Of a DNA stretch of 64,000 nt, positions 23,964 through 45,639 are shown one piece after another. Each line of letters begins with the position of its first letter. The first letter of the stretch is position 1. Position numbers and translations under genes: made by a program. The notes under the pieces were generated by a model, which was not told the DNA's origin, searched no databases, and saw only the letters and a list, made by a program, of their open reading frames with translations. Location: positions 186,001 to 250,000 of the forward strand of contig NZ_QVON01000001.1 in assembly GCF_003426735.1 (NCBI RefSeq). The letters run 5' to 3'. This DNA is from Arenibacter sp. P308M17. Lineage in GTDB: Bacteria; Bacteroidota; Bacteroidia; Flavobacteriales; Flavobacteriaceae.

Positions 23964-24037
23964 TCCTCCTTAGCTCAGTTGGTTAGAGCATCTGACTGTT
24001 AATCAGAGGGTCCTTGGTTCGAGCCCAAGAGGGGGAG
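23964..24037 (+). tRNA. tRNA-Asn (anticodon GTT)
   Basis: A complete 74-nt cloverleaf. The acceptor arm TCCTCCT pairs with AGGGGGA (one G-U), with discriminator G at 24037. The D arm is AGCTCAGTTGGTTAGAGC, and the anticodon stem-loop CTGACTGTTAATCAG carries GTT. The T arm is CTTGG-TTCGAGC-CCAAG. CCA is not encoded. The 3' part from 24011 is the left attachment site of the island, so the gene stays functional after integration. Confidence 0.97.
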
Positions 24038-24039
24038 CT
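24011..24039 (+). repeat. attL (29-bp tRNA-Asn 3' end)
   Basis: The 29 bases from TCCTTGGTTCGAGC to GGGGGAGCT are identical to 42552-42580. They cover the T arm, the 3' acceptor strand and 2 bases beyond the discriminator. Flanking bases differ (G/C before, T/A after), which fixes the repeat ends. Confidence 0.93.
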
Positions 24040-24216: not shown

Positions 24217-24268
24217 ATTTTTAAATCCGAATTGCATGCCAATTGTTAAACATTAAAATCAATTGGTT

Positions 24269-25480
24269 ATGAATCAACTATCAATCTCAGTTTTGTTTTA
24301 CTTAAATAAATCGAAACTAAATCAAAAAGGACTATGTCCAATTAAATGTAGAATCACCTATCAGAAAAAACGAAAGGAATTTTCTACAGGTCTATTTGTA
24401 AGTCCAGAGTATTGGAATGCGAAAAGACAAATAGTACTTGACACTGACTTGGAAGGTAAATCCAAAAATGGACATCTATCAATAATAAGTCAGAAACTCA
24501 ATAATGCTTTTCTCTCATTGGAACTAGCCTCTGACGATTATGATATTAATGACATTTTTGATAAATACGCAGGTAGGGTAGTCCAGAAAGAGGACAACGT
24601 GGTGAACTATTTTAGGAGGTTCCTAGTTAAAAAATCCCAACTAGTAGATAAGGATATAAAGGAAGCTACTTATAAAAAATTTGAGTATGTGTGCAATGAC
24701 CTTGAGGCTTTTATATTATCGGAATATAAAAAGAAGGACTTTCCACTGAACAAACTTAACCCTCAATTTTTAGATGATTTAGAGCATTATTTAAAGATAG
24801 TAAAGGGTCAGAAGCAAGTTACCATAAACAAGGCTATCCAACGCTTCAGAAAACCTATTAAGGTGGCTGTAGCCGAAGGATATTTGGATAAAGACCCATT
24901 CACACAACATAAACCAGGACGGGTCTTAAAAGAGGTTGTTTTCCTTTCTACAGAAGAGTTGGAAAAACTTGAGAAACACCAGTTCACCCAACCTAGACTT
25001 CAATTGGTAAAGGATTTATTCATTTTTTGTTGTTATACTGGATTGGCATACCATGAGATGTCCAATTTAAAAAAAGAGCACATAATAAAGGGATTTGATG
25101 GTAACCTATGGATCAAAATGAAAAGGGAGAAAACAAGTAAAATGATATCTGTTCCATTATTGCCAAAAGCCAAGGTCCTCCTAGATAAATATAACAATAC
25201 GGTTGAGGGCTTTGCACTACCTAAATTTAGCAACCAAAAAATCAACTCCTATCTAAAGGAAATATCTGGAATAGTAGGAATAAATAAATCTATAAGCCAT
25301 CATGTGGCTCGAAAAACTTTTGCATCTACTGTGCTCCTTTACAATGATGTTCCCATGGAAATCGTGAGTGAATTGTTAGGTCATTCCAGCATGAAGATTA
25401 CGCAGGAGTATTACGGAAAGATTGTTCAGAAGAGGGTTAGTGAGGAGATGTATAGGGTATCAAAAAAACTGATTCAGTAA
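24269..25480 (+). CDS. Tyrosine recombinase (island integrase)
   Basis: I place the start at ATG 24269 (a TTG two codons earlier is possible); 403 residues. Layout: N-terminal Arm-DNA-binding domain (residues about 1-85), SAM-like core-binding domain (about 100-205), catalytic domain (about 215-400). Catalytic features: HVARKTFA (HxxR, near residue 343), LLGHSS (Gly-His near 371) and the nucleophile Tyr in QEYYGKIV near 382. The first catalytic Arg box reads TGLAYHE instead of TGLRxxE, so Arg is replaced by Ala; several Bacteroidota integrases share GLAY, so it need not be inactive. Position beside attL identifies it as the integrase of this island. Confidence 0.93.
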   Translation: MNQLSISVLFYLNKSKLNQKGLCPIKCRITYQKKRKEFSTGLFVSPEYWNAKRQIVLDTDLEGKSKNGHLSIISQKLNNAFLSLELASDDYDINDIFDKYAGRVVQKEDNVVNYFRRFLVKKSQLVDKDIKEATYKKFEYVCNDLEAFILSEYKKKDFPLNKLNPQFLDDLEHYLKIVKGQKQVTINKAIQRFRKPIKVAVAEGYLDKDPFTQHKPGRVLKEVVFLSTEELEKLEKHQFTQPRLQLVKDLFIFCCYTGLAYHEMSNLKKEHIIKGFDGNLWIKMKREKTSKMISVPLLPKAKVLLDKYNNTVEGFALPKFSNQKINSYLKEISGIVGINKSISHHVARKTFASTVLLYNDVPMEIVSELLGHSSMKITQEYYGKIVQKRVSEEMYRVSKKLIQ

Positions 25481-27813: not shown

Positions 27814-27824
27814 GATCTAAACGA

Positions 27825-28049: not shown

Positions 28050-28082
28050 ACAATAAAAATGGTGGAGAAAAAATGTTTTTAT

Positions 28083-28100
28083 ATAGGCATATATGCCTAT
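28083..28100. promoter_or_regulatory. 18-bp perfect palindrome, probable XRE operator
   Basis: ATAGGCATATATGCCTAT is a perfect 18-bp palindrome in the divergent spacer between the XRE gene (start 28049) and the secreted-protein gene (start 28131). Position and symmetry fit binding of a dimeric HTH repressor. Confidence 0.7.
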
Positions 28101-28130
28101 TTTTAATTAACCATAATTCAACTATACCAA

Positions 28131-28616: not shown

Positions 28617-28648
28617 AGTAAGATTCTGAAACTGAATTTTGTAATGTT

Positions 28649-28879: not shown

Positions 28880-28888
28880 AATGGAGTA

Positions 28889-29365: not shown

Positions 29366-29517
29366 AAAAAATCTACATTTCAAAAATTTTTTTCTAAAAT
29401 TTTTTCTGACACTTCCTTCACGCAAGAGCAGACTAACCGAAAGCTCACCCCCCGCCCTTTTTGGATTTTACGGGATACCCCCGTGCTTTAATTGTTTAAT
29501 CTTAAATTAAAAAGACC

Positions 29518-29862: not shown

Positions 29863-29883
29863 AAAAATAACCTACATAATTAT

Positions 29884-29913
29884 AAAGGGCTTCAGAAATG
29901 GAGCTCTTTTTTT
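29884..29913 (+). terminator. Rho-independent terminator
   Basis: AAAGGGCTTC (29884-29893) pairs with GGAGCTCTTT (29900-29909), ten pairs with two G-U, a six-base loop and a T-run, 21 bp after the preceding stop codon. Confidence 0.75.
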
Positions 29914-30031
29914 ATGTTTTTTTTTCAGTTGGGAGCTTCTTAATTAAGTTTATGATAACCTCAAAAATTTAATTATGATCTAATTAAAAATATTATCGAA
30001 TACATATATCACCTAAACAAAAATAGAAATC

Positions 30032-30922
30032 ATGAAATTACAAACTGCACAACGGCACCAGGTAAAACTGAGGCTTGGATTGAGTGGAGCAAGTGGATTT
30101 GGCAAAAGCTATTCCGCTTTATTATTGGCTCATGGAATAACCAATGATTGGTCCAAGATTGCCATAATAGATACAGAAAATAACAGTGCCAGCCTTTATT
30201 CCCATTTGGGCAATTTTAGTGTTTTATCACTCGATGAACCCTATAGTCCAGAAAGATACATAGAAGCCATTAAAACTTGTGAGAATGCGTCTATGGAGGT
30301 CATTATTATCGATAGCATAACCCATGAATGGCAGGGTAAGGGAGGATGTCTCCAAATCCATGAGCAATTGGGAGGCAGGTTTCAGGATTGGAGTAAAGTA
30401 TCTCCACGGCACCAGGCTTTTATAGATGCCATTTTGCAATCCAGATGTCACATGGTAACCACGGTCAGGAGCAAGATTGACTATTCCCTGGATAGTGACC
30501 AAAATGGAAAGACCAAGGTTGTCAAACATGGTACAAAAGAGATTACGCGTGAGGGCTATGAGTATGAGCTTACTGTGAATTTTGAACTTATCAATGACAA
30601 GCATCTTTGTAAGGCATCAAAAGATCGCACAGGACTTTTTATGGATAAACCAGAATTTATAATAAACCAAGCCACAGGTAAAAAACTGATTCATTGGTGC
30701 AATGAAGGATTATCTGTAGAACAAGCCAAAACAGAAATAGCCAAATGTACTACAATTGAGGGTTTGCGCCATTTATATCAAAAATATCAAGGACTTAAAA
30801 AGGAAGTTTATCCAATGATTTTAAATCGCAAATCCGTTTTGGAAACCGTTACAGGTCAAATTGTGTCATCAGAAACCATTATTAACCCTCTAAAAACAAA
30901 AGAACATGGAACTAATAACTAA
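30032..30922 (+). CDS. RecA-like ATPase (AAA_24 / phage nucleotide-binding type)
   Basis: The 296-residue protein has Walker A GASGFGKS at residues 19-26 and Walker B VIIIDS near 89-94 within a RecA-like fold (KIAIIDTENNSASLY between them). A conserved KASKDRTGLF lies downstream. Such single-domain ATPases occur in phages and islands as recombination (Sak4-like) or replication accessory proteins. It overlaps the DUF3871 gene by 17 bp, so the two are translated together and probably work together. The C-terminal 70 residues are helical and could bind a partner. Confidence 0.8.
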   Translation: MKLQTAQRHQVKLRLGLSGASGFGKSYSALLLAHGITNDWSKIAIIDTENNSASLYSHLGNFSVLSLDEPYSPERYIEAIKTCENASMEVIIIDSITHEWQGKGGCLQIHEQLGGRFQDWSKVSPRHQAFIDAILQSRCHMVTTVRSKIDYSLDSDQNGKTKVVKHGTKEITREGYEYELTVNFELINDKHLCKASKDRTGLFMDKPEFIINQATGKKLIHWCNEGLSVEQAKTEIAKCTTIEGLRHLYQKYQGLKKEVYPMILNRKSVLETVTGQIVSSETIINPLKTKEHGTNN

Positions 30923-31886
30923 TCCTCGTCCACAATCGATGATTCAGGACACAATGGAAATTAAAAACAATCATTCCAGTAGTTTTATAGAAGCCAATAC
31001 ACAGAAGGTGTCATTGGAACATCTACAGAAAGATTGTATTATACCAGTTTGGTCAAAGGATAATGAAACAACCATTAGCCACGGACAGTTTATTGGCAAT
31101 ACCATGGAGATAGTTCAAAATCTATTTCCTGAATTGCAGGTCAATTCACCTGACATTAGGGTAAGCCATGTGGTCAAGGGAAGGATACCATCTGCCATAG
31201 GCAAGCCAGTTAAGGAGCTAAAGGAACATGAGAAGACCATTTATTATGAAAGATGTGGTTTTCTAATTGACCTACCCAACATAGTAGAGGTAATCAATGG
31301 AAACGAACTGAGTCTTAGTGTAGGTGGGGTCCGTGCCTATAATCAAGAAAACTTGTACAGCAGAAAATCCTTGGAGAAATTCAAGGTTTTTATTGGCTTT
31401 AAAAATAAGGTTTGTACAAATCTGTGCATTTCAACAGATGGATTTTCCAATGAAATACGCATTGGGTCAATAGATGAACTGGGCAAACAGATGGAGAATT
31501 TATTTCAATCCTATAATCGGGAAAGACATTTGGAACTGATGCAGAGAATGTCCAGATATAGATTTACGGAGAAGCAATTTGCCCATTTTTTGGGGAGACT
31601 TAGGATGTACCATCACATGACCAAGTCGGAACAGCTTCAGGTATTCCCTATCCATCTAAACGATAGTCAGGTAAGTGTGTTGGTCAAGAATTATTATAAC
31701 TGCCCAAACTTTGGAAGAAATAAGGATGGTTCCATAGACTTCTGGAAATTGTTCAATTTGCTAACCGAAGCCAACAAGTCATCTTATATCGATACGAACT
31801 TGGAACGCAATGTAAATGCATACGAGTTGATCAACAACCTAGGAAATTCCATGGAAAACGGAATTTTAAATTGGTACACTCAATAA
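30906..31886 (+). CDS. DUF3871 family protein
   Basis: The 326-residue protein matches the DUF3871 family known from Bacteroidota mobile elements: HGQFIGNTMEIVQNLFP and DIRVSHVVKGRIPSAIGKP near the N-terminus and FAHFLGRLRMYHHM near residue 220. The function of the family is unknown. It overlaps the RecA-like ATPase by 17 bp; the first ATG (30906) lies inside that gene. The association of the two suggests an island replication or recombination module. No catalytic motif was recognised. Confidence 0.8.
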   Translation: MELITNPRPQSMIQDTMEIKNNHSSSFIEANTQKVSLEHLQKDCIIPVWSKDNETTISHGQFIGNTMEIVQNLFPELQVNSPDIRVSHVVKGRIPSAIGKPVKELKEHEKTIYYERCGFLIDLPNIVEVINGNELSLSVGGVRAYNQENLYSRKSLEKFKVFIGFKNKVCTNLCISTDGFSNEIRIGSIDELGKQMENLFQSYNRERHLELMQRMSRYRFTEKQFAHFLGRLRMYHHMTKSEQLQVFPIHLNDSQVSVLVKNYYNCPNFGRNKDGSIDFWKLFNLLTEANKSSYIDTNLERNVNAYELINNLGNSMENGILNWYTQ

Positions 31887-31953
31887 TAAATATAGCTATT
31901 AGGCGCTTGACTGCAAATAAACCAGCTAGTGGAATAACTTATAAATTGGCAAT

Positions 31954-32202
31954 ATGGATGAGGAGAAATTAGCGGAATTACTTAAATATAGCTCGCCTAA
32001 AGAACTATACATAATAACCTGGAACAACTTGTTAAAAATACTTTTTTGTCCGTTTAAGGTTCGGGTACTACAGGGAGTAGGCAATTTAAAAAAAGGCAGT
32101 ATTGTCTGGGTAGAAGAAGTCAAAGTTACTAGGGATTTGGTAACGGTGTACATAATTAAGGGAGAAGCCTATTACTATAATAGATTCGACATAATCTTAT
32201 AA
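31954..32202 (+). CDS. Small protein, possibly translated
   Basis: 82 residues with a C-terminal beta-rich stretch (IVWVEEVKVTRDLVTVYIIKG) that reads like a short SH3-like fold. No family recognised. It stands alone 67 bp behind DUF3871 on the same strand. Frame quality is like that of neighbouring genes and the start MDEEKLAELL is plausible, but the evidence for expression is weak. Confidence 0.45.
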   Translation: MDEEKLAELLKYSSPKELYIITWNNLLKILFCPFKVRVLQGVGNLKKGSIVWVEEVKVTRDLVTVYIIKGEAYYYNRFDIIL

Positions 32203-32622
32203 AAAAAAGGAGTCATGCTGTATTTTGGATAACCAAGCTTTTGAGACGGTTCCTCCTTTAACAAAGAACCACTGAAAATGATTTGAGCTCAAAATGGGTG
32301 ATGAAAACTAGAAATAGTATAGTTGCCCATTTACAACAAAAAATTGATATAAAAAAATATATATTGTTAAAAATTAGGAAAATTCAATAATTTTACGTAT
32401 ATTCGTAGCTGTTTTTGGATTTTAGATGAAGGAGATTGATGAAAGTGATTAAGCAAAAAAACAAAAAAATAAAGTTATTTGGGCGCTCGCCATATTCTTC
32501 ATTTAAAATAACTATTCCAAAATTTTATTAAAACTGTCGGCTTAAATAGTTGCCGAAACTTTAATCAGACTACTCGGACTATCCTGACTGGGATATTTCG
32601 TTAGTTATAATATTAATATAGA
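32203..32622. other. 420-bp AT-rich non-coding region before RepA-like gene
   Basis: No gene seen. The stretch is strongly AT-rich in its middle (32340-32400) and contains ACTGTCGGC (32535-32543) and, 7 bases later, GTTGCCGA. It lies directly before a RepA-like ATPase gene, where an origin could be expected, but I see no clear iteron array. Confidence 0.4.
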
Positions 32623-33708
32623 ATGGAAGAAACTAATCATGTTTCAAATGAAGAAGGTAGAATAGTTGTTGTCAAGGCTATTGACCTTATTAACAAGGTA
32701 AAAGAAGAACCAGAACCAAGTTTTTTGTGGAAAGGAATACCAGAGGGCTCAACAGGATTGATAACTGGTGTGGGAAAGACAGGTAAAACTACATTTGCCG
32801 AAAACCTGGCAATTAGCCTAAGTGTTGGTAAAAAGGAATTTTTTGGATTTCCAATGGATGGAGTTCCTAGAAAATCACTGTTCATTAACTTAGAGGAAAG
32901 TTATAGAGTTAAAAGCCGAAGAAATATAAGACAGATTGCAAGTTTAACCCCTGCAGAGTTGGATCTTTTCGCTAGTAATTATTTAAGTACTCCTTTGGAT
33001 TTTCCTCAATATTTGAATACCGAGAATGACTGGGAACTAATGCGAAATTATATAATTGCGTCTGAGGCGGAAGTTGTGTTTATTGATAGTTTAGGTCATA
33101 TGTGCATTGGGGAAATTGAAAAGAGTCTTATAGCACAAAATTTTACTAAGACATTTAAAGAGTATTTAGGGAATCTTAATAAAACATTGATTATAGTGCA
33201 TCATATGACAAAAGGCAGTGATAAGCCAATTGACCAAGATTCAATCGCTGGTAGCCGATTTATTGCCCAAGAATTTGACTATGCATATGGCTTAGCACAT
33301 GTGCCAAGAGCGACGGGTGGAAGTTATGCATGTTTATTATACAATAAATATATTGAAAAGGATGATACCACCTCTTATTTATATAAAATGTCCAATGATG
33401 GATGGGTAGAGTATTTATCGACGGAAAATAAGTATAATTTGTATAAAGACAGTCGTATTGACGGTAGGGCAAATTCTACCAATAATGATCTTATATATAA
33501 ATATGTTAAGAGTAAGGCTAGTCAGGGTAGTCAGACTATAACGTCTCAGGAGTTCATGGAAAATTTCGTTTCTAATAATACAATGTCGAAGGATACCCTG
33601 TATAAAAAAATTGGACATCAAATTCAAGATGGTTTAATTGAAAGGAAAGAGGGTAATGAGGGAGTTTATAAAATTAACTTGGGGACTGGAAATGGAGAAA
33701 GAAAATAG
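32623..33708 (+). CDS. RepA-like RecA-fold ATPase (AAA_25 type)
   Basis: The 361-residue protein has Walker A GVGKTGKT at residues 49-56, Walker B VVFIDSLGHM near 150, and a RecA-core IIVHHMTKGSD near 190, as in RepA/RSF1010-type helicases and AAA_25 proteins of integrated elements. The C-terminal 80 residues (SQTITSQEFMENFVSNN to the end) look like a winged-helix DNA-binding domain. It probably unwinds or loads at the element origin. It overlaps the following GIY-YIG gene by 17 bp. Confidence 0.8.
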   Translation: MEETNHVSNEEGRIVVVKAIDLINKVKEEPEPSFLWKGIPEGSTGLITGVGKTGKTTFAENLAISLSVGKKEFFGFPMDGVPRKSLFINLEESYRVKSRRNIRQIASLTPAELDLFASNYLSTPLDFPQYLNTENDWELMRNYIIASEAEVVFIDSLGHMCIGEIEKSLIAQNFTKTFKEYLGNLNKTLIIVHHMTKGSDKPIDQDSIAGSRFIAQEFDYAYGLAHVPRATGGSYACLLYNKYIEKDDTTSYLYKMSNDGWVEYLSTENKYNLYKDSRIDGRANSTNNDLIYKYVKSKASQGSQTITSQEFMENFVSNNTMSKDTLYKKIGHQIQDGLIERKEGNEGVYKINLGTGNGERK

Positions 33709-34354
33709 TAATTATATAATATATAAGGCGGTCAATTTCCAATCTGGTGGTGTGTACATTGGTGCGACGGGTAAAAGTTTGGAAGAGCGTATGCAGGACC
33801 ATATACAAAAATCCAATAAAGGATTAGGAGGTTATTTTCAGGAAGCTATCGGGACTTATGGTCCGGAGGCTTTTACTTGGGAGCAAATAGATACTGCCAA
33901 TGATGTCAATGAGATGGCTAGCAAGGAGAAAAAATACATTTTGAAATATAAAAGTAACAAAGATGGCTATAATTCCGATTGTGGAGGTGGAGTTCAAAAG
34001 AATGTTTACCAATATAGTGTGGATGAAGGAAGATTGGTTGGGACTTATGATTCATTAGAACATGCTGCTAAGGCGGTTAATTCATCTAGGAAATCTATAA
34101 GCAATGCATGCCTTGGCTATAATAAATCCTGTAGAGGGTTCTATTGGAGTTATGATTGTTCAGAGCCATTTATACCAGAAATGGATAAAAGGAAGAAGGA
34201 AGTTTACCAAATATCCCTTCAGAATCAATTTGTAGCTAAATATGTATCTGTTTCAGAAGCATCAAAGCAAACAGGAATATCCAAAACCTGTATCTCTAGA
34301 TGTTGTAGAGGTGAAAGGGATCGCAGTGGAGGATATATATGGAAATACATTTAG
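33692..34354 (+). CDS. GIY-YIG nuclease with two NUMOD1 repeats
   Basis: The start at ATG 33692 (MEKENSNYIIYKAVN) gives 220 residues and overlaps the ATPase gene by 17 bp; a longer in-frame start would lie deep in that gene. GIY-YIG domain: YIIYKAVN...GVYIGATGKSLEERMQDH, with Glu near residue 75 as possible catalytic residue. Two C-terminal NUMOD1 DNA-binding repeats follow (VYQYSVDEGRLVGTYDSLEHA and VYQISLQNQFVAKYVSVSEA in parts), each with the SRKSISNACLG/SKTCISRCCRG helix. This is the architecture of free-standing homing endonucleases. No intron or intein surrounds it. It could cleave competing elements or the island's target. Confidence 0.85.
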   Translation: MEKENSNYIIYKAVNFQSGGVYIGATGKSLEERMQDHIQKSNKGLGGYFQEAIGTYGPEAFTWEQIDTANDVNEMASKEKKYILKYKSNKDGYNSDCGGGVQKNVYQYSVDEGRLVGTYDSLEHAAKAVNSSRKSISNACLGYNKSCRGFYWSYDCSEPFIPEMDKRKKEVYQISLQNQFVAKYVSVSEASKQTGISKTCISRCCRGERDRSGGYIWKYI

Positions 34355-34358
34355 AAAG

Positions 34359-34386
34359 AAAGGGCAGCAGATATGTTGCCCTTTTT
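34359..34386 (+). terminator. Rho-independent terminator
   Basis: AAAGGGCAGCA (34359-34369) pairs with TGTTGCCCTTT (34374-34384), eleven pairs, GATA loop, T-run. It begins 4 bp after the GIY-YIG stop and separates the replication block from the restriction operon. Confidence 0.88.
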
Positions 34387-34520
34387 ATTTATATATTTAA
34401 AGTTTCATGGCAAGCAATTTTGAAAATTAGTGCAATCATGGAAATATAAACGGAAATAAAATAATAAAGGTCGTTTAATAGCTGCTTTTTTTATTTTTAG
34501 AGACAAATTCAAAATGACCG

Positions 34521-35975
34521 ATGTTCGAACAAACTTTTAAAAATATTGACGACCTTTTATACAAAGATGCAGGTGCAGATAGTGAATTGGACTATATAGG
34601 ACAGACCTCGTGGGTTATGTTCCTTAAATACCTGGACGAACTGGAGCAAGACAAAGCAGATGAAGCAGAGCTAAAAGACGAATACTACCAATACATATTA
34701 GACCCAGAATACCGTTGGCCAATTTGGGCGATGCCTAAAGGGGCAGATGGCAAATTGGACCATCACATTGCAATGACAGGACCGGATCTTATCCAATTTG
34801 TGGACCAGAAGCTATTTCCATATTTGGCTGGATTTAAACTTACGGCAGACAACCCCCAGACCATAGAATATAAAATAGGTGAGATTTTTTCAGAGTTAAA
34901 AAATAAAATTCAAAGTGGATACATTTTAAGGGATATTTTAGATTATGCCGACGAGCTTCCCTTTAGGTCATCAACAGATAAGCATGAGCTGAGCGAGTTG
35001 TACGAAACCAAGATTAAGAATATGGGTAATGCTGGTCGTAATGGGGGGCAATATTACACTCCCAGGCCACTCATTAGGGCCATGATAAATGTAGTGGACC
35101 CAAAGATAGGCGAGAAGGTTTACGATGGAGCGGCAGGCTCCTGTGGCTTCCTATGTGAGGCTTATGAGTATATGTATGACCGCATGGAAAAAACCACGGA
35201 TAATCTCCAGACCCTTCAGGAAAGAACATTTTATGGAAAGGAGAAAAAGAACCTGGCTTATGTGATTGGAATTATGAATATGATTTTGCACGGGATAGAA
35301 GCCCCTAACATTATCCATACCAATACCTTGGGGGAAAACATAAGGGACATCCAAGAGAAAAACCGTTACCATGTCATTCTGGCCAATCCACCCTTTGGCG
35401 GAAAGGAACGTAAAGAGGTACAACAGAACTTTGATATTAAAACAGGGGAAACCGCTTTTCTGTTTTTACAACACTTTATAAAAACCTTAAAAACTGGAGG
35501 TCGTGCTGCTATAGTCATAAAGAATACTTTTTTAAGTAATACCGATAATGCCTCTGTTGCCTTACGCCAATATTTATTGGAGAGTTGTAATCTACATACA
35601 GTATTAGATATGCCCGGGGGAACCTTTTTAGGTGCTGGAGTAAAAACTGTGGTGTTATTTTTCGAGAAAGGTGAAACAACTAAAAATATCTGGTATTATC
35701 AACTGGACCCAGGGCGAAACATGGGTAAGACCAATCCTTTAAATGATAAGGATTTAGCGGAGTTTATAAAATTACAAGAAACCAAACCTGAAACGGAGCA
35801 ATCGTGGAATGTAAAAGTGGCAACAATAGATGAAAAAACCTATGACCTGATTGTTAAAAACCCAAATATTCCAAAGGAAGCAGCATTACGAAGCCCAAAG
35901 GACTTATTAGCGGAAATGGAATCATTAGATGATGAAACTAATGCAATTTTACAATCGATTAAAGAGTTAATTTAA
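34521..35975 (+). CDS. hsdM: Type I restriction-modification methyltransferase subunit HsdM
   Basis: The 484-residue adenine N6-methyltransferase has an N-terminal HsdM helical domain (residues 1-135), motif I in GEKVYDGAAGSCGFL and catalytic NPPF in ILANPPFGGKE near residue 288; GGQYYTPRPLI is the usual HsdM lead-in. The start ATG at 34521 opens directly into FEQTFKNIDDLLYKDAG, as in homologues. The stop touches the hsdS start (ATG at 35976). It methylates the host's recognition sites together with HsdS. It is the first gene of a four-gene operon. Confidence 0.95.
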   Translation: MFEQTFKNIDDLLYKDAGADSELDYIGQTSWVMFLKYLDELEQDKADEAELKDEYYQYILDPEYRWPIWAMPKGADGKLDHHIAMTGPDLIQFVDQKLFPYLAGFKLTADNPQTIEYKIGEIFSELKNKIQSGYILRDILDYADELPFRSSTDKHELSELYETKIKNMGNAGRNGGQYYTPRPLIRAMINVVDPKIGEKVYDGAAGSCGFLCEAYEYMYDRMEKTTDNLQTLQERTFYGKEKKNLAYVIGIMNMILHGIEAPNIIHTNTLGENIRDIQEKNRYHVILANPPFGGKERKEVQQNFDIKTGETAFLFLQHFIKTLKTGGRAAIVIKNTFLSNTDNASVALRQYLLESCNLHTVLDMPGGTFLGAGVKTVVLFFEKGETTKNIWYYQLDPGRNMGKTNPLNDKDLAEFIKLQETKPETEQSWNVKVATIDEKTYDLIVKNPNIPKEAALRSPKDLLAEMESLDDETNAILQSIKELI

Positions 35976-37187
35976 ATGATGGTATTAAAAAAGTTCGGTG
36001 AAGTTTGTGATTTTGTAAGAGGTCCATTTGGTGGTAGTCTAAAGAAAAGTGGTTTTGTCGAGGATGGATATGCAGTCTATGAACAGCAGCATGCCATTTA
36101 TGATCAATTTACTGAGATACGATATTTTGTTGATGAGGAAAAGTTCAATGAAATGAAAAGATTCGAGCTTAAGCCTAACGATTTAATAATGAGTTGTTCC
36201 GGAACAATGGGGAAAGTTGCAATTGTACCACAAAGTATAAAGAAAGGGATAATTAATCAAGCACTTTTGAAGCTTACACCAAAAAAGTTTTTGGATGTTG
36301 AATATCTAAGGTATTGGATGACCAGTCCAGACTTTGATGCAAGAATAGAAGAGAACACAGTTGGAGCAGCCATAAAAAACGTAGCATCTGTTAAAATTTT
36401 AAAGCAAATTGATGTTCCCACACCACCTCTTCCTGAACAACAACAAATCGTTGCCCTATTGGACGAGGCCTTTGAGGCCATAGACCAAGCTAAAGCTAAT
36501 ATTGAGAAAAACATTGAAAATGCAAAGGAGCTGTTCCAGTCCAAACTCAACGATATCTTTAGTCAAAAAGGTGAGGGTTGGGAGGAAAGGACTTTGGGCA
36601 AAGTTTGTATGAAAACAAAAAATATTAGGTGGCAAGACCATATAAATGAAGAATATCAGTACGTTGATTTAAGTTCAGTTTCGAGAGAAACTTTAAAAGT
36701 GACAGAAACAGCAATAGTTAATGACAAGAATGCACCAAGCCGAGCAAAAAAAATTATTGAAAAAGGCGATGTAATATTTGCTACTACAAGACCAACACTA
36801 AAAAGAGCAACTATTATTGATGAAGAACTAGATGGTCAAATTTGTAGTACTGGTTATGTAGTGTTAAGACCAAATGAAAAGATTAGTACAGATTGGATAT
36901 TTTTCTATCTTTTGACTTCAACATTCATAGATAGAATGGAGTCCTTACAACGGGGAGCAAGTTATCCCGCTGTAACTGATAGCGATGTAAAAGGTTCAAT
37001 ATTGTCGATTCCAACATCAAAAATTATTGAGGGCAAATATATTAGCGTAATGCATCAATTACGAGAAGGTACGAGTGAACTTATTATTCAATATCTGGAA
37101 AAATTAAATTCACTCGAAGAACTCAAAAAATCTATCCTTCAAATGGCGTTCACAGGGGAGTTAACAGATAAAGCTGTTGAGGTATGA
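35976..37187 (+). CDS. hsdS: Type I restriction-modification specificity subunit HsdS
   Basis: 403 residues with the two-TRD layout: TRD1 about residues 1-150, the first conserved helical spacer with LPEQQQIVALLDEAFEAID (about 153-200), TRD2 about 205-360, and the second spacer ending in LKKSILQMAFTGELTDKAV. It sets the bipartite DNA recognition sequence of the complex. It starts on the base after the hsdM stop and ends in ATGA overlapping the KAP gene, so translation is coupled throughout. The target sequence cannot be deduced. Confidence 0.94.
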   Translation: MMVLKKFGEVCDFVRGPFGGSLKKSGFVEDGYAVYEQQHAIYDQFTEIRYFVDEEKFNEMKRFELKPNDLIMSCSGTMGKVAIVPQSIKKGIINQALLKLTPKKFLDVEYLRYWMTSPDFDARIEENTVGAAIKNVASVKILKQIDVPTPPLPEQQQIVALLDEAFEAIDQAKANIEKNIENAKELFQSKLNDIFSQKGEGWEERTLGKVCMKTKNIRWQDHINEEYQYVDLSSVSRETLKVTETAIVNDKNAPSRAKKIIEKGDVIFATTRPTLKRATIIDEELDGQICSTGYVVLRPNEKISTDWIFFYLLTSTFIDRMESLQRGASYPAVTDSDVKGSILSIPTSKIIEGKYISVMHQLREGTSELIIQYLEKLNSLEELKKSILQMAFTGELTDKAVEV

Positions 37188-38584
37188 AAATTAAGCATAA
37201 TGACATAGTAATACCTGAAAACAACCCTTTTGTAAATTGTAAATTAGGTAGGGAACAGTATGCTGATGTGTTGACTAGTATTACTGAAAATTATTCAGAT
37301 GGTTTTGTATTGGCTATAGATAACAAATGGGGTCAAGGCAAGACCACTTTTATAAATATGTGGCGGCAAAAACTGAAAAATATAGGATTCAGCACCCTCT
37401 ACTTCAACGCATGGGAGAATGATTTTCATGATGATGTTATCCTATCATTAATAGCTGAGCTCGAGGAGCTTAGGGAGAAGTCATATGAAAATTTCGATAG
37501 TTTAATTAGTAAAACAGCAAAGTTCATGAAAAAGGCTGCGCCCGAATTAGTTAAAGGAGCCGTTGGAAAATTTGTGGGTAATGAAGCTGTTACTATAGTA
37601 GCAGAGGCTGCTGTAGAGTTTACTACGGACGAAATAGAAAGCAGTTTAAAAGAGATAAAGGAGAGAAAAAAAGGAATTCTTGAGTTCAGACAAAGTCTTG
37701 AAAAATTCGTTGAATCAGTGGACAATAAAAGACCTATTGTGTTTTTTATTGATGAATTGGATAGGTGTAGACCAAATTACAGCGTGCAAATTTTAGAAAA
37801 GGTAAAGCATTTTTTCAACGTTCCAGGTATTGTTTTTGTTTTGTCCATTGACAAAAGCCAGTTGTGCCATGCAATTAAAGGTGCATATGGCAGCGAAAAT
37901 TTTGATTCGAAGGAATATCTAAAAAGGTTCATTGATTTGGAATATAGTATTCCAAATCCCGATGCAGAAAAAGTAGTTGACTATTACTTTGAATATTTCG
38001 GAATAGAGGAATTTTATAAAAAACAAACTAGATTACATAGTCGTGGTTTAAATGTTGAGTTCGCAAATTTTTTAGAAACTTTTATCGTTTTGATTTTAAA
38101 TAAAACTCTTAATTTGAGGGCAATTGAAAAAATAATCGCCCATTTCAAAATTGTTCTTTCATCATTTTCCTCAAACCAGTATACCTTCCCTGAAATTATT
38201 CTTTTAATTATCCTTTTGAAGAAATACAATGAAGATTTTATTAGAGAAATAGTTGATAAGGCATATACTCCACAAGAATTGGTAAATAAATTAGAAATGG
38301 AATTTAAGGTTAACAAGGGTGATGAGGAAAGACAGAAAAGAGTTCTGAGTTTTATGTTCGCCACTTTTATTTATGCTTATTGTAATTACATTAAGGGTGA
38401 TTTTTATGCTAAAAAATACCTGGAAAGTGTAGAAGGAAAAAGCAAATTGATATTAACTACTAATTATGACCAAAAAAAATTTGAAAATATATTTATACTC
38501 CGGAATAACGATATGAATATAAGTGATGTGGACTTAGATTGGTTAATAGGAAGAATTGATTTTATAGAAAAAATGGTTGGTTAA
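37184..38584 (+). CDS. KAP family P-loop NTPase inside a type I R-M operon
   Basis: The 466-residue protein carries KAP signatures: Walker A WGQGKTT at residues 49-55, FNAWEND near 73, and Walker B FFIDELDRCRPNY near 186. KAP NTPases often have transmembrane insertions between the Walker boxes; here residues 110-150 are Ala/Val-rich but not clearly membrane-spanning. It overlaps hsdS by 4 bp (ATGA) and is followed 3 bp later by hsdR, so it is made with the restriction subunits. KAP and related STAND-type ATPases occur in several anti-phage systems. A role as sensor or second-line effector of the R-M complex is inference. Confidence 0.9.
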   Translation: MKIKHNDIVIPENNPFVNCKLGREQYADVLTSITENYSDGFVLAIDNKWGQGKTTFINMWRQKLKNIGFSTLYFNAWENDFHDDVILSLIAELEELREKSYENFDSLISKTAKFMKKAAPELVKGAVGKFVGNEAVTIVAEAAVEFTTDEIESSLKEIKERKKGILEFRQSLEKFVESVDNKRPIVFFIDELDRCRPNYSVQILEKVKHFFNVPGIVFVLSIDKSQLCHAIKGAYGSENFDSKEYLKRFIDLEYSIPNPDAEKVVDYYFEYFGIEEFYKKQTRLHSRGLNVEFANFLETFIVLILNKTLNLRAIEKIIAHFKIVLSSFSSNQYTFPEIILLIILLKKYNEDFIREIVDKAYTPQELVNKLEMEFKVNKGDEERQKRVLSFMFATFIYAYCNYIKGDFYAKKYLESVEGKSKLILTTNYDQKKFENIFILRNNDMNISDVDLDWLIGRIDFIEKMVG

Positions 38585-38587
38585 ATA

Positions 38588-40972
38588 ATGAATGAAGCCC
38601 AAACAGAATTTGAATACATTGATCCTGCACTTAGGAAAGCCGGCTGGGGAACAGTAGAGGGTTCACGGGTATTCAAACAATTTCCTATCACCAATAAAGA
38701 AAAACCTGGGGTGCGTAATTATTCTCAACTAAGAGCAGATTATGTACTTATATATAAGAATAGAAACCTCGCCGTCATTGAGGCCAAAAAACGAGACCAG
38801 TACTATACGACAGGCGTTGGGCAAGCTAAGGATTATGCTGAGCGGCTGAATATTAGATATTCCTATGCTACCAATGGACTTCAAATATATGGTGTGGACA
38901 TGGATGAAGGAACTGAAGGTGATGTGAGTAAGTATCCTTCACCAGATGAACTTTGGGAGATGACCTTTCCAACACCTAAGGAGGAGTATAAGGTGGAAAT
39001 AGCAGATTGGAAAGAGCGTTTGTTTTCTGTTCTGTATGAAGATAGGGGTGGCACATGGCAACCGCGCTACTATCAAAATAACGCCATTACAAAGGTATTA
39101 GAGGCCGTTGCAGATAAAAAGGACAGAATCTTACTTACTCTTGCTACGGGAACAGGAAAAACAGCAATTGCGTTTCAAATAGCTTGGAAGTTATTCAATG
39201 CTAAATGGAATTTAAGACGTGATGGACAACGAAGTCCTAGAATATTGTTTTTAGCGGATAGAAATATTTTGGCAGACCAAGCATTTAACTCATTCAATGC
39301 CTTTGAAGAAGATGCCTTAGTGCGCATTGCGCCAGATGAAATAAGAAAACGTGGTAAAGTACCCCAGAATGGTAATATCTTCTTTACCATTTTTCAGACC
39401 TTCATGTCTGGACCATATGAAACACCGAACTTTGGCGAATACCCTAAAGACTTTTTTGACTTTATTATTATAGATGAGTGCCACCGTGGAGGTGCCAATG
39501 ATGAAAGTACATGGCGCGCTATTATGGAATATTTTAGTCCAGCTGTCCAATTGGGGCTTACAGCCACACCAAGACGAGACGTTAACGGTGACACTTATAA
39601 GTATTTTGGTGATCCAGTATATATCTATTCCCTAAAAGAAGGTATCAACGATGGTTTTTTGACCCCTTTCAAGGTGAAAGAAATTAGTACTACCATAGAC
39701 GAATATGAATATACTGGGGATGATGATGTAGAAACAGGTGAGATTGAAACCAACAAAAAATATACGGAAGCTGACTTTAATCGAATTATAGAAATCAAGG
39801 CCCGTGAGGAATATAGGGTAAAGATATTTATGGATATTATTAACCAGAACCAGAAGACCTTGGTGTTCTGTGCCACCCAAGTGCATGCTGCTGCCATTAG
39901 GGATCTGATCAATCAATATTCGAAGAGCAAAAATACCAATTACTGTCATAGGGTAACTGCGGATGATAACAAGGTAGGGGAAAAGCATTTAAGGGATTTT
40001 CAGGATAATGAAAAAAATATCCCTACCATTTTGACCACTTCCAGGAAGTTGAGTACGGGGGTAGATGCACCAGAGATTAGAAATATAGTATTGCTAAGGC
40101 CTGTAAAGTCTATGGTGGAGTTTAAGCAGATTGTGGGTAGAGGCACTCGTTTATTTGATGGAAAGGAATATTTCACAGTATTCGATTTTGTAAATGCTCA
40201 CGACCATTTTAAAGACCCTGAATGGGATGGTGAGCCATTGGAACCAGAACCTTATGAAAAAGGCAAACGAGGTAAAGGTGACTGTAAAGTATGTGGACAA
40301 CCAAAACCATGTGCTTGCGTTAATGAACCACCCCCAATCTGTGAGGTCTGTAAAAATGACCCTTGTGTTTGTGATGTCCCTACTAAGAAAATGATAAAGA
40401 TAAGGTTGTCTGACACTAAGGTTCGTGAAATAGATTCCATGGTTAAAACTTCTTTCTGGAGCCCTTCAGGCATGCCTATTTCAGCCAAAGAGTTTATAGA
40501 ACAACTGTTCGGGGACTTGCCCTCATTCTTTAAAAATGAAGAAGAACTGAGAAGGATTTGGAGCTTGCCCACTACAAGAAAGAAGTTGTTGGAAGAGCTG
40601 AATGAAAAGGGCTATACCAATTCGCAATTGGAAGATCTACGTAATTTGGTTCATGGCGAAAATAGTGACCTCTTTGATGTTTTAAACTATGTGGCCTATC
40701 ATAAGGACTTGGTTCCGCGTTTAGAAAGGGCAGAGAAGGCAAAGGTTCAATTAGGAGATTACAATCCCAAGCAGCAGGATTTCCTAAATTTTGTATTGGA
40801 TCAGTATGTAAAAGAAGGTGTGGACGAACTCGACGATGCTAAACTGCCCGATTTACTGGAATTGAAATACAAGGCTATTGCCGATGCAAAACGTGAGTTA
40901 GGGGCTATTAAAACCATTAGAGAATCGTTTATAGGATTTCAAAGTTATTTGTATGGTGGTGCGGCCGGTTGA
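38588..40972 (+). CDS. hsdR: Type I restriction endonuclease subunit HsdR
   Basis: 794 residues: N-terminal nuclease domain with ADYVLIYKNRNLAVIEAKK (D...ExK, about residues 45-65), then SF2 helicase motifs ATGTGKTAIAF (Walker A near 185), IIIDECHRGG (motif II), LGLTATPRRD (III) and IVGRGTRLFDG (VI). The C-terminal helical region is of EcoEI R type. Near residues 565-600 there is an unusual duplicated cysteine motif, CKVCGQPKPCAC then CEVCKNDPCVC, a probable zinc site. It translocates and cuts unmodified DNA with HsdM and HsdS. It is last in the hsdM-hsdS-KAP-hsdR operon. Confidence 0.95.
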   Translation: MNEAQTEFEYIDPALRKAGWGTVEGSRVFKQFPITNKEKPGVRNYSQLRADYVLIYKNRNLAVIEAKKRDQYYTTGVGQAKDYAERLNIRYSYATNGLQIYGVDMDEGTEGDVSKYPSPDELWEMTFPTPKEEYKVEIADWKERLFSVLYEDRGGTWQPRYYQNNAITKVLEAVADKKDRILLTLATGTGKTAIAFQIAWKLFNAKWNLRRDGQRSPRILFLADRNILADQAFNSFNAFEEDALVRIAPDEIRKRGKVPQNGNIFFTIFQTFMSGPYETPNFGEYPKDFFDFIIIDECHRGGANDESTWRAIMEYFSPAVQLGLTATPRRDVNGDTYKYFGDPVYIYSLKEGINDGFLTPFKVKEISTTIDEYEYTGDDDVETGEIETNKKYTEADFNRIIEIKAREEYRVKIFMDIINQNQKTLVFCATQVHAAAIRDLINQYSKSKNTNYCHRVTADDNKVGEKHLRDFQDNEKNIPTILTTSRKLSTGVDAPEIRNIVLLRPVKSMVEFKQIVGRGTRLFDGKEYFTVFDFVNAHDHFKDPEWDGEPLEPEPYEKGKRGKGDCKVCGQPKPCACVNEPPPICEVCKNDPCVCDVPTKKMIKIRLSDTKVREIDSMVKTSFWSPSGMPISAKEFIEQLFGDLPSFFKNEEELRRIWSLPTTRKKLLEELNEKGYTNSQLEDLRNLVHGENSDLFDVLNYVAYHKDLVPRLERAEKAKVQLGDYNPKQQDFLNFVLDQYVKEGVDELDDAKLPDLLELKYKAIADAKRELGAIKTIRESFIGFQSYLYGGAAG

Positions 40973-41070
40973 AAAATGAAAGATGAATTCTTTTTGAAAT
41001 TTTTAGTAGTGAATTAATGTAGTTGCAGGGATATAGGATATTATTAATAAAGATTTGTAAACACTAATTT

Positions 41071-41649
41071 ATGGAAAAACCAGTTAAAGAAATTCGGGAA
41101 AATTACAAAAGGTATGAAGAATTAATTGGTGAGATTAAGAATACTTCTATTCAAACAATAACACTTGATGAACTAAAGGGAAACCATCAAAATACAAGAG
41201 TTAAAAAAGTAAATGTTGAACATGTATCTGTTCCTGAAAAGCTAGAATTAATTATAGAGTCCAGAATAGAAAACAAAAAAGATTTTAAATTCAAATTAAG
41301 AGCTCCAGAATACACTGGAATTCCATTTTTTAGATTTGACTCCGACGGTGTAGCACATTACAATAGAGTTCCAGATGTAGAACTTCCAAATCAAAAAGTA
41401 GAAACGCCCCATTTCCATAAATTTGATTCCGATGGTAGAAACATTGCATATAAAACTGCCCCACTAGAGAAAGCCACGGAATGTGATGCTTTACTCAATG
41501 ATATAAGTCTGTGTATGGCACATTACTGTGATGAGTCTAGGACATATTACAAAAATGAATATTATGTTGAAATAATTCAAACACCTCCTACTGAATTAGA
41601 TTTCGATAGTCATAAAGATAACCCTACAGAAGGTGTACAATATGAATAA
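41071..41649 (+). CDS. Unknown protein, first of an overlapping pair
   Basis: I do not recognise this 192-residue cytoplasmic protein. Its middle part contains a repeated phrase: FFRFDSDGVAHYNRVP and FHKFDSDGRNIAYKTAP (about residues 89-135), each with F-x-x-FDSDG. No membrane helix or classic nuclease motif is present. The stop overlaps the next gene by 8 bp, so the two products are made together. It begins 98 bp after hsdR and may belong to the restriction operon or be a separate module at the island's right end, a place where defence cargo commonly sits. Confidence 0.72.
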   Translation: MEKPVKEIRENYKRYEELIGEIKNTSIQTITLDELKGNHQNTRVKKVNVEHVSVPEKLELIIESRIENKKDFKFKLRAPEYTGIPFFRFDSDGVAHYNRVPDVELPNQKVETPHFHKFDSDGRNIAYKTAPLEKATECDALLNDISLCMAHYCDESRTYYKNEYYVEIIQTPPTELDFDSHKDNPTEGVQYE

Positions 41650-42469
41650 TCTAGAAAAAATAGCAATTAATGTCCGAGAAAGCTTTGACCAGTTATGGTC
41701 CTTTAAGCTGAGAGGAAAAGATACCATAGAAATAAGTACACCCTATTCAACAACTACGAGTAAGTTTGTTTCAATTTATGTAACGGAGCGTGGTGGAAAA
41801 TATATTGTTTCTGATGGTGGTCTATTGAATTCTGAGGCTTACGAATCTGAGATTGATTATGAAAATCAATGCCTGTTAAAGATTCTTTATCATTTTGAAG
41901 CTTATTATGAAGTTAAAAGAACAGAGGATAAACAAGGCATTAAACATTATTATAAAACAACTACAAAGGCGAACTTAATCCCCAACATGGTTTATGAAAT
42001 GGCTCAGTTTGTTTCTATGTGTGCATCTGCTGCAACAGTTCAATTTGAAGATGCAAAAGAAATAGAGGAAAGAAATACGTTTAGGACTAAGGCAAATACT
42101 TATATAGGTTCAAACCTTAAGGAATATAATCCCATTTTTCAAGCTAGTCTAGATAGGGATGAATATCGTTCAGTCAGGTTTAGCGCATTGATCGAAAGAA
42201 GGAATAGATTAAGCCTTGTGAGTTTTGTAACAGGTTCAAATCCTTCCAATTTTAGAAATTGTATAGCAAGAACTAATATGAATTTCGAAATTGCGGCTTC
42301 TTCTAAATATAAAGATCATATAGATAATAAGCTTGTGTTGGTTAATAATACTGCTGATGGATTTGAGTATAATCAAATTTCCAAACAACTTTTCATTCTT
42401 GAGGAACACACAGGACAGGAAGCCATATTTTGGACAGAAAGAGAAAAATTAGTAGCAATTTTAAAATAA
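41642..42469 (+). CDS. DUF1828-like protein, second of an overlapping pair
   Basis: The ATG at 41642 gives 275 residues; a GTG three codons earlier is the alternative. The N-terminal region IEISTPYSTTTSKFVSIYV...GGKYIVSDGGLL resembles the DUF1828 pattern (substrate-facing beta strands ending in SDGG). The remainder has ALIERRNRLSLVSFVTG, followed by a probable DUF1829-like C-terminal half. The biochemical role of the DUF1828 family is unknown. It overlaps the 192-residue gene by 8 bp and ends about 80 bp before attR. Family assignment is by eye and moderately certain. Confidence 0.72.
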   Translation: MNNLEKIAINVRESFDQLWSFKLRGKDTIEISTPYSTTTSKFVSIYVTERGGKYIVSDGGLLNSEAYESEIDYENQCLLKILYHFEAYYEVKRTEDKQGIKHYYKTTTKANLIPNMVYEMAQFVSMCASAATVQFEDAKEIEERNTFRTKANTYIGSNLKEYNPIFQASLDRDEYRSVRFSALIERRNRLSLVSFVTGSNPSNFRNCIARTNMNFEIAASSKYKDHIDNKLVLVNNTADGFEYNQISKQLFILEEHTGQEAIFWTEREKLVAILK

Positions 42470-42503
42470 TAAATTTAGTAGAAAAGGCATACAATTCGGT
42501 TGC

Positions 42504-42522
42504 CCATTAAGTTGGCAAGTTG
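42504..42522. repeat. Right-end copy of subterminal inverted repeat
   Basis: TTGGCAAGTTG (42512-42522) is the exact reverse complement of 24148-24158; the adjoining CCATTAA (42504-42510) also mirrors TTATTAATGG-like sequence at the left end. It lies 30 bp inside attR. Confidence 0.55.
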
Positions 42523-42551
42523 TCAAATAGTTGGATTACAAAAAGTTACTC

Positions 42552-42580
42552 TCCTTGGTTCGAGCCCAAGAGGGGGAGCT
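42552..42580 (+). repeat. attR (29-bp tRNA-Asn 3' end)
   Basis: Identical to 24011-24039. Here it is not part of a tRNA, since the D and anticodon arms are missing upstream. It marks the right boundary of the island. Confidence 0.93.
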
Positions 42581-43985: not shown

Positions 43986-45548
43986 ATGGCAACCCCCAGA
44001 GAACGATTCGCAGAAGCCCTTAGCTTTCTGAAAGGGTTACAGGACCAGGGTATAGTAGGAATTCATACCGATGATATTCCTAATGTAAAACACCGTCAAT
44101 TGCTTGTCAAAAATGGATTTTTACAGGAAGTCACCAAAGGATGGTATATTGCCACAGACCCCAATGGGAAAGATGGTGAAACCACAGCGTGGTATAGTTC
44201 ATATTGGGAATTTATAGCACGGTTTCTTAACCGAAAATATGGAGACGATTGGTCGCTTTCGGCAGACCAATCCTTATTGCTCCATGCCGGGAACCGGTCG
44301 GTGCCGCAGCAATTGCATATACGGTCGCCCAAGGGCAATAATAAGCCTACTCCGTTACCCTATAACACCTCCCTGTTCAATTTGAAGACCGATATACCTA
44401 CTTCGGAACAGACCATAATAGAAGAAGGCATCCGCATGTATAGTTTACAGGCCTCCCTCATTTATGCAGGGGTGTCGGTGTATACAAGCAATGCCATTGA
44501 TGCGCGTACCACGCTGTCGTTGATACGGGATGCTTCGGAATTATTGCCCATACTATTGGAAAACGGGCATACCACATTGGCTGGTCGATTGGCCGGGGCT
44601 TTTCGTAACATCCAACGTAACAGAATAGCCAACCAGATTATGGAAACCTTCAAACAGGCCGATTATGACATCCGGGAGGAAGATCCCTTTGATGCCAAAT
44701 TGGAATTGAAATTGTCGGCAAGGGAACGTTCTCCTTATGCCAACCGCATACGCCTGATATGGCTACAGATGCGTGGGGCTGTAATGGCCAATTTTCCCCA
44801 AGCCCCCGGCATACGGACCGACCATGAATCCTATATGAAGGACGTGGACGATATATACATAACGGATGCCTACCATTCCCTGTCCATTGAGCGCTATCGG
44901 GTGACCCCTGAGTTGATTCAAAAAGTGAGTTCCGGCGAATGGGACACCGAGGAAAACGAAGGGGACCGGAAACAACGGGATGCGATGGCAGCCCGGGGCT
45001 ATTATCAGGCTTTCCAATCCGTAAAGCGGAGCATCAAAGCCATATTGGAAGGAGCAAATGCAGGAACACAGGTCGATAAAGACCATGCCACATGGTACAG
45101 GCAGTTGTTCGACCCAAGTGTAACGGCAGGCCTGTTGAAGGCTTCCGACCTTTCCGGTTACCGCAATAGCCAAGTGTACATCGGAAACTCCAAACATGTT
45201 CCCCTAAATGTAGAAGCCATGCGCGATGCCATGCCCATACTATTTGAACTGTTGGAGGAAGAGTCCGAGGCTTCCGTGCGCGCCGTGCTGGGCCATTTTG
45301 TCTTTGTTTTTATCCACCCGTATATGGATGGCAACGGTCGTATGGGCAGATTCCTGATGAATACAATGCTGGCCTCCGGGGGCTATCCATGGACCGTAAT
45401 TCCCGTAGAAAAGCGGGATGAATATATGCAGGCATTGGAGGAAGCGAGTGTAAGACAGAACATCGAACCGTTTGCAAAATTCTTGGGAGATTTGGTCAAC
45501 GAAAGAATGAAAGGTAAAAATGCAGCGGAATTACCGAACAAAAAATAG
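43986..45548 (+). CDS. Fic family protein (AMP-transferase type) with N-terminal wHTH-like region
   Basis: The 520-residue protein has the intact Fic motif HPYMDGNGRMGR near residues 445-456, needed for transfer of AMP or another phosphate-linked group to a target hydroxyl. The region before it (about 290-440) has the Fic helical core. Where class II Fic proteins carry the inhibitory (S/T)xxxE(G/N), this one reads SLSIER near residue 298: the Glu is kept, the next residue is Arg. Residues 1-130 resemble an AbiEi-like winged helix (GIHTDDIPNVKHRQLLVKNGFLQ). The target is unknown. It stands alone beyond the island's right end. Confidence 0.9.
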   Translation: MATPRERFAEALSFLKGLQDQGIVGIHTDDIPNVKHRQLLVKNGFLQEVTKGWYIATDPNGKDGETTAWYSSYWEFIARFLNRKYGDDWSLSADQSLLLHAGNRSVPQQLHIRSPKGNNKPTPLPYNTSLFNLKTDIPTSEQTIIEEGIRMYSLQASLIYAGVSVYTSNAIDARTTLSLIRDASELLPILLENGHTTLAGRLAGAFRNIQRNRIANQIMETFKQADYDIREEDPFDAKLELKLSARERSPYANRIRLIWLQMRGAVMANFPQAPGIRTDHESYMKDVDDIYITDAYHSLSIERYRVTPELIQKVSSGEWDTEENEGDRKQRDAMAARGYYQAFQSVKRSIKAILEGANAGTQVDKDHATWYRQLFDPSVTAGLLKASDLSGYRNSQVYIGNSKHVPLNVEAMRDAMPILFELLEEESEASVRAVLGHFVFVFIHPYMDGNGRMGRFLMNTMLASGGYPWTVIPVEKRDEYMQALEEASVRQNIEPFAKFLGDLVNERMKGKNAAELPNKK

Positions 45549-45639
45549 CCACATTATATTATTTGAAATCATTTGATTAAAGTTACCGTATAGAAAGCAT
45601 AAAACGCTCCCGTCGATGTCCTAATTACAAAACACTGGA

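Follow-up and report, generated by a model that had tools for sequence, protein, structure and literature searches.

The window analysed here, a 64,000-nucleotide stretch of a contig of Arenibacter sp. P308M17 (NZ_QVON01000001.1, positions 186,001 to 250,000), contains a type I restriction-modification (RM) operon in which a gene for a KAP-family P-loop nucleoside triphosphatase (NTPase) is placed between hsdS and hsdR. Comparison of this operon and of the KAP gene with their respective relatives indicates, with a probability of about 0.78, that the KAP gene is a portable, self-contained and most likely anti-phage gene, which occupies a slot for cargo genes at the hsdS/hsdR junction of a type I operon carried by an integrative element at a tRNA-Asn gene. 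The best reading is that the KAP protein is functionally separate from the restriction system though co-expressed with it; it looks like exchangeable cargo, not like a new component of the enzyme.

The operon lies on the forward strand and comprises hsdM for the methyltransferase subunit (34521..35975, 484 aa; Pfam N6_Mtase, E 4.7e-62; PADLOC PDLC03021, E 5.3e-157), hsdS for the specificity subunit (35976..37187, 403 aa; Pfam Methylase_S in two stretches, E 2e-25), the KAP gene (37184..38584, 466 aa; KAP_NTPase, E 4.8e-46), and hsdR for an EcoEI-type restriction subunit (38588..40972, 794 aa; Pfam ResIII, E 2e-39, and EcoEI_R_C, E 9.7e-31; also matched in PADLOC). The coordinates confirm the arrangement described in an earlier note on this stretch: hsdM and hsdS adjoin with a 0-bp gap, the hsdS stop and the KAP start share a 4-bp ATGA (37184..37187, +), and the KAP gene and hsdR are 3 bp apart, with all four frames intact. 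The motifs NPPF in HsdM, DYVL, EAK, GTGKT, DECH and TATP in HsdR, and DELDRCRP and NAWE in the KAP protein were located, those of HsdR including helicase and nuclease-like motifs. With hsdM, hsdS and hsdR in a single operon and their motifs intact, the genes constitute a type I RM system, and HsdMSR is predicted from them to methylate and cut DNA at a specific sequence. The 4-bp overlap and the 3-bp gap suggest that the KAP gene is probably transcribed and translated together with the hsd genes. With a GC content of 0.313, the KAP gene lies below hsdM (0.391) and hsdR (0.400); the value for hsdS is 0.353.

One line of evidence comes from the hsdS/hsdR junction in related operons. Within the family, 19 of 299 genomes contain an HsdR relative (E <=1e-150), and within the genus 4 of 18 (E <=1e-100); the own genome is counted in both samples, which gave 21 operons besides that of the window. 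Among these 22 operons, 16 form the group with the order hsdM-hsdS-hsdR (HsdR identity at least 55%); the contigs of two members (L095 and L100) end before hsdS, and the junction counts rest on 15 operons including the window, as L095 is not resolvable. The junction is empty in 4 of the 15 (L094, L102, L098 and L103) and filled in 11, once by KAP and ten times by other cargo. KAP was found in the window only, and the other slots hold an AlbA_2/Schlafen-like gene (SLFN_AlbA_2; L124 and L101), RhuM or RhuM-Fic (L096 and L105), a RhuM fragment together with a transposase of the Y1 type (L097, the transposase being named by its likeness to that of L111), a PHP-ATPase (L104), DUF5131 (L100), a Y1 transposase (L111, and L106 below the Pfam cut-off), and a gene of 122 aa (L099, 9631-9999). 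In three of the empty operons hsdM departs from a separate intact frame; it is split over two frames in L094, and in L098 (7875-9998) and L103 (1090-3156) it is fused with a single Methylase_S domain in one frame. An AbiH gene (Pfam, E 1.6e-71) stops 3 bp ahead of hsdM in L098.

The closest comparison is that with L124, of the same genus, in which HsdR is 94% identical and an AlbA_2 gene stands in place of KAP; at the DNA level, hsdM is 86% and hsdR 88% identical to those of the window, and the hsdR alignment begins at 38587, one base ahead of the hsdR start. In L094, HsdR is 86% identical and the junction is empty. There, hsdS ends with GAGGTATAA and hsdR starts 3 bp further on, and the hsdS gene of the window ends with GAGGTATGA, the ATG of which is the KAP start; therefore, the insertion is seamless at the hsdS stop. 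Thus, the KAP gene is an embedded gene, i.e., a non-hsd gene within the operon that is missing (L094, L102) or replaced (L124) in close homologues. Absence of KAP from such homologues had been named in the earlier note as a result that would speak against an integrated system, and it is what was found. A role of KAP as an accessory subunit, either regulating HsdR or powering it, would agree with the gene order, the 3-bp gap to hsdR and the fact that both proteins are ATPases by family; however, no KAP is present at the junction in L124 or L094, HsdR has helicase and nuclease-like motifs of its own, and the order hsdS-KAP-hsdR is found at none of 37 other KAP loci, which makes such a subunit highly improbable. 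KAP as a partner of HsdR was rejected on the ground that close homologues of the operon lack it. Of the roles proposed earlier, a second line of defence is plausible and the most likely one, and a built-in component or regulator of HsdR is not supported.

The spacing of the genes leads in the same direction. The distance between hsdS and the cargo, with starts called mechanically, was readable in 10 operons including the window, and 6 of them (the window, L096, L099, L101, L104 and L105) have the 4-bp ATGA overlap, five with non-KAP cargo; in the remainder, hsdS and the cargo are separated by 2 bp (L106), 4 bp (L111), 52 bp (L124) and 79 bp (L097). Because unrelated cargoes have the same 4-bp overlap, tight spacing is no sign of partnership, and the meaning that the earlier note implied for it finds no support here. 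Extra genes are not confined to one gene order, since all of the 6 operons (of 22) with the order hsdR-X-hsdM have one between hsdR and hsdM: an AAA_21 ATPase (L107 and L109 by scanning, L110 by position and likeness of its start), a PDC-S26 PD-(D/E)XK protein (L108), RhuM (L128), or a 447-aa protein (L127, 641-1981), which, like the 122-aa protein of L099, matches nothing in Pfam or PADLOC. Both gene orders taken together, 17 of 21 resolvable operons hold an extra gene. Strong PADLOC candidates at the hsdS/hsdR junction are PDC-S23 (L096 and L105), PDC-M49A (L104) and PDC-M30B/M41B (L100), and at other junctions of the related operons PDC-S05 (L101 and L128) and PDC-S26 (L108). In this type I operon family, accessory genes thus land at the junction that precedes hsdR, and a seamless overlap of genes there does not imply joint function. 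A more elaborate proposal, in which the hsdS/hsdR junction is a true exchange site (recombination via the conserved 3′ end of hsdS and 5′ end of hsdR) and KAP is in addition wired to fire when restriction fails, is rather improbable as a whole; its first half rests on the 11 of 15 filled slots with at least six unrelated kinds of gene, and the wiring to the restriction enzyme is unsupported.

The second line of evidence is the distribution of the KAP gene itself. KAP relatives were found in 18 of 395 genomes sampled from the phylum (E <=1e-15), 4 of 395 from the class (1e-40), 15 of 299 from the family (E <=1e-30) and 3 of 18 from the genus; a second, overlapping family sample (12 of 397, 1e-80) added one new locus. 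Each of these counts includes the window's own genome. A genome_contigs search gave 3 loci. Flanks of up to about 10 kb per side were collected for 37 loci from other genomes (L003-L005, L025-L043, L060-L069, L073, L074, L125, L126 and L210), of which 30 are flanked by 2 kb or more in both directions and 7 by less than 2 kb in one; L034/L035 and L038/L043 are same-genome pairs. Three family loci with frames of about 650 aa (G403, G664 and G674; E about 1e-31 to 1e-32) were left out of this set. The more distant KAPs of L038 and L040-L043, with frames above 600 aa, probably represent other KAP subfamilies.

Profile searches of the flanks with HsdM, HsdS and HsdR revealed no KAP gene between hsdS and hsdR at any of the 37 related loci. 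A type I system is near KAP at three of them (L028, L125 and L126), the first two of which match by construction since their rows are included in the profiles, and blastp of 36 of the flanks agrees with the profile result. The sole other direct hsd neighbour is the KAP gene of L028, which lies directly upstream of hsdM-hsdS-hsdR; KAP relatives in the family of L028 were limited to its own genome (1 of 79, E <=1e-40). The flank of L210 gave a single weak helicase-like match, and the KAP gene of L026 adjoins a GmrSD-type gene. The recurrence of hsdS-KAP-hsdR that the earlier note named as support for a real system is thus not seen, as the order occurs at 0 of the 37 other loci and KAP occupies 1 of 15 resolvable operons, that of the window itself.

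These counts also bear on whether KAP guards the restriction enzyme. PrrC, encoded with EcoprrI, is such a guard; it is released when an anti-restriction protein disables the restriction enzyme, and the cell is then killed. A KAP protein of this kind would stay silent while HsdMSR works, be freed by a phage anti-restriction protein and then kill the cell, and its tight spacing and place between hsdS and hsdR would suit this role. In Pseudomonas islands, moreover, PrrC is frequently found inside RM loci (PMC12629846). However, the flanks collected for 34 of the 37 KAP loci contain no type I system (33 with the weak L210 match counted as one; 7 of the 37 have less than 2 kb on one side), no clear type I system is seen at the best 80 of 233 viral loci, and other genes are found in this position with an identical overlap. 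For most KAP relatives there is thus no restriction enzyme linked to them that could be guarded, and a guard function is quite unlikely.

On viral-classed contigs, KAP relatives are common. In IMG/VR, 233 of 246 motif-bearing stretches encode one. The best 80 of these 233 loci, L112 among them, were analysed, and all 80 contain a KAP ORF (open reading frame) of about 406-580 aa; no HsdS match was found in the flanks of these best 80, and weak HsdM-like and HsdR-like matches were obtained in L157 and L185, respectively. For plasmids, 149 records match KAP, none of which covers 80% of the query, and no hsd gene was found within 8 kb of KAP in the 4 of 149 records inspected (H1, H2, H5 and H13), for which the gene table is incomplete. 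Five phage records match KAP; two were inspected, one of which is unannotated, and in the annotated prophage KAP is next to genes for a DNA adenine methylase and an S24 family peptidase. In genome G602, a KAP gene stands alone at one site, and this operon, with the PHP-ATPase in its slot, is present at another. The KAP gene is therefore mostly free-standing. Two solo relatives score about as well as the window protein against PDC-S20, or better, with E 5e-169 for L131 on a viral contig and 3.4e-153 for chromosomal L066.

In the phylogenetic tree, the window KAP clusters with L065, L066, L067, L068 and L069 (support 97/97), whose fetched flanks, that of L067 being only 174 bp on one side, contain no hsd genes. 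The KAP of L028 is not among the 22 rows that group with the window (support 100/99), by which a single clade of hsd-linked KAPs, named earlier as a sign of a real system, was rejected. The history that fits best, as we infer it from the sequences, is one insertion of a solo KAP gene into a ready slot.

The reading of KAP as a portable, self-contained anti-phage gene has to be weighed against several observations that do not favour it. At the same-genus loci L125 and L126, the KAP strand also encodes a different type I system, 2.8-3.4 kb away and with four called ORFs between; hence a loose association between KAP and hsd genes exists. Among the 37 relatives, five (L003, L004, L005, L036 and L064) have frames of less than 400 aa (about 246-359 aa). 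A strong PADLOC candidate is present in just 5 of the 11 filled slots, KAP counted; both AlbA_2 cargoes match PADLOC weakly (PDC-S50, E 3.5e-7 and 2.5e-7), and four slots hold Y1 transposases (L106 and L111), the 122-aa gene (L099) or the RhuM fragment with its transposase (L097). In Vibrio cholerae, the nearest tested precedent, TgvAB, protects alone, but for several phages its protection is 10- to 100-fold below that of the complete type I cluster (PMC11411939); by analogy, the independence of embedded genes may be incomplete. Finally, the literature search yielded no assay of the window KAP protein, and PDC-S20 is itself a prediction. Part of this material would suit a passenger that has no defence role and is retained since the slot tolerates insertions, given that the slot also accepts Y1 transposases and a RhuM fragment and that some KAP relatives have shortened frames. 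The frame and motifs of the window KAP are, however, intact, some other slot genes are defence candidates, and KAP-domain proteins are known in defence (Tmn, the qatABCD system and PifA), so that a mere passenger is unlikely.

An anti-phage action of the window KAP is probable by analogy with its family (PifA, QatA and Tmn) and from its genomic company. The Pfam score for KAP_NTPase is 157.8 bits against a curated cut-off of 20, and with Walker A and Walker B both present the protein belongs to this family. It matches the PADLOC model PDC-S20 (PDLC04959), a candidate single-gene phage defence, over its full length, from residue 1 to 464 of the protein and from position 1 to 462 of 464 of the model (E 2e-154); it also scores against PifA (E 3.5e-25, residues 36-341 only) and QatA (E 8.1e-16). 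PifA, a KAP protein of the F plasmid, acts in abortive infection. The Walker A motif reads KWGQGKTTF in the alignment, and W49, G50, G52, K53, T54, T55, D190, E191, L192, D193 and R194 are invariant in 20 of 20 aligned KAPs. The nearest named carriers of the gene are Mucilaginibacter, Pedobacter and Chryseobacterium.

An AlphaFold2 model of the KAP protein reached a mean pLDDT (predicted local distance difference test) of 85.2 and a pTM (predicted template modelling score) of 0.83, with poor confidence for residues 118-147; strands and helices alternate in its core, and the C-terminal part is helical with two short strands. A fold search of the PDB returned the RdrA rings of RADAR as the top match (E 1.0e-05, template modelling (TM) score by query 0.38, root-mean-square deviation 12.3), followed by Orc/Cdc6-type, FtsH and clamp-loader ATPases, and among viral predicted structures the best match was a KAP protein from a Megaviridae sample (TM by query 0.33). 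The core is AAA+-like as modelled, and these fold matches carry no further weight. No convincing sequence relative was found in the PDB, with two P-loop matches to ATP-binding cassette transporters at E about 0.005. The title of the 2004 paper on the KAP family reportedly refers to transmembrane segments within the NTPase domain, a feature treated here as typical and not obligatory. By hydropathy alone, no clear transmembrane stretch is present in the window KAP, the best 19-residue value being 1.27; of 56 rows in two KAP alignments, each of which includes the window, 9 attain 1.6 and no row attains 1.9.

On the preferred reading, the tRNA-Asn element would carry an operon with two barriers to phage. 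As the first barrier, HsdMSR would cut unmodified DNA; as the second, the KAP ATPase would act against phages that escape HsdMSR, and the operon may deliver this second barrier because KAP is probably co-expressed with the hsd genes. The KAP protein, a predicted AAA+-like P-loop ATPase whose C-terminal part is mostly helical, would recognise an infection signal, and an ATP-driven assembly would then lead to shutdown of the infected cell or of the phage programme; both the infection trigger and the effector are inferred.

The operon is located in an 18.5-kb integrative element (about 24011-42580) at the tRNA-Asn gene (23964-24038). The element is bounded by 29-bp attachment repeats on the forward strand, the left at the 3′ end of tRNA-Asn (24011..24039, +) and the right at the right end of the element (42552..42580, +), and encodes a tyrosine integrase (24263..25480, +; Arm-DNA-bind_5, Phage_int_SAM_5 and Phage_integrase). 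A homing-endonuclease-like GIY-YIG/NUMOD ORF (33638..34354, +) lies directly upstream of hsdM; L124 also has a GIY-YIG gene before hsdM (82% identical in DNA across 642 bp), and it shares with the window a stretch of 93 bp at the element's right end, with 98% identity. Elsewhere in the element, an AAA_15 ATPase of 582 aa (25669-27417, -), related to the defence ATPases AriA (PADLOC, E 1.2e-31) and Old (E 1.9e-24), is possibly a further defence gene. Two genes of 192 and 278 aa with a 17-bp overlap (41071-42469) lie between hsdR and the right end and bear weak labels only (DUF6978, E 0.0009, below the cut-off; PDC-M24B, E 0.0001). Just outside the element (43986-48627) are a gene of higher GC (0.482) for a Fic-domain protein (PADLOC SoFic, E 6.9e-23) and one for a primase-helicase of the TOTE type (AEP-TOTE, E 1.7e-82).

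A literature search for the name PDC-S20 found no paper. The principle of guilt-by-embedding was reportedly introduced in a 2024 preprint by Payne et al. The inference route of the earlier note resembles the PDC listing. This is because candidates of the PDC-S20 kind in PADLOC-DB v2.0.0 were named via guilt-by-embedding (PMC10855318). The solo PDC-S20 relatives L131 and L066 stand alone, whereas the window gene sits inside an hsd operon. The other KAP-domain defence proteins matched by the window protein are PifA, over part of its length (residues 36-341), and QatA; KAP-domain proteins in defence include the qatABCD system. Tmn is a KAP-family NTPase whose mechanism is unexplored (PMC11846954); it has two transmembrane domains, in contrast to the window KAP, in which hydropathy gives no clear transmembrane stretch. 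A Tmn line is missing from the PADLOC matches of the window KAP, although the presence of a Tmn model in PADLOC was not checked.

Embedding of a second system in a type I operon has several precedents. DarTG2 is positioned between hsdS and hsdR, the same type I operon position as that of the window KAP, but it differs in being a toxin-antitoxin pair governed by a dedicated repressor, RptR (PMC12255303); the wording "between hsdS and hsdR" occurs in this paper and in PMC9577141. TgvAB of the V. cholerae island VPI-2 is, like KAP here, a second defence within a type I cluster, and differs as a two-gene GmrSD-type restriction system without a KAP domain (PMC11411939). At one Pseudomonas island hotspot, most type I systems hold an embedded second defence, often PrrC, and PifA is the most enriched of the rarer additional systems at that hotspot (PMC12629846). 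Consequently, the earlier statement that no characterised system has exactly this layout holds in that none with KAP was found in the literature searched, whereas the kind of arrangement is known from DarTG2, TgvAB and PrrC, and PDC-S20 is already named in PADLOC. The KAP ATPase in the hsdS/hsdR slot is a new member of this kind; it joins the list of slot genes, of which AlbA_2, the PHP-ATPase, DUF5131 and the 122-aa gene are flagged as cloning candidates.

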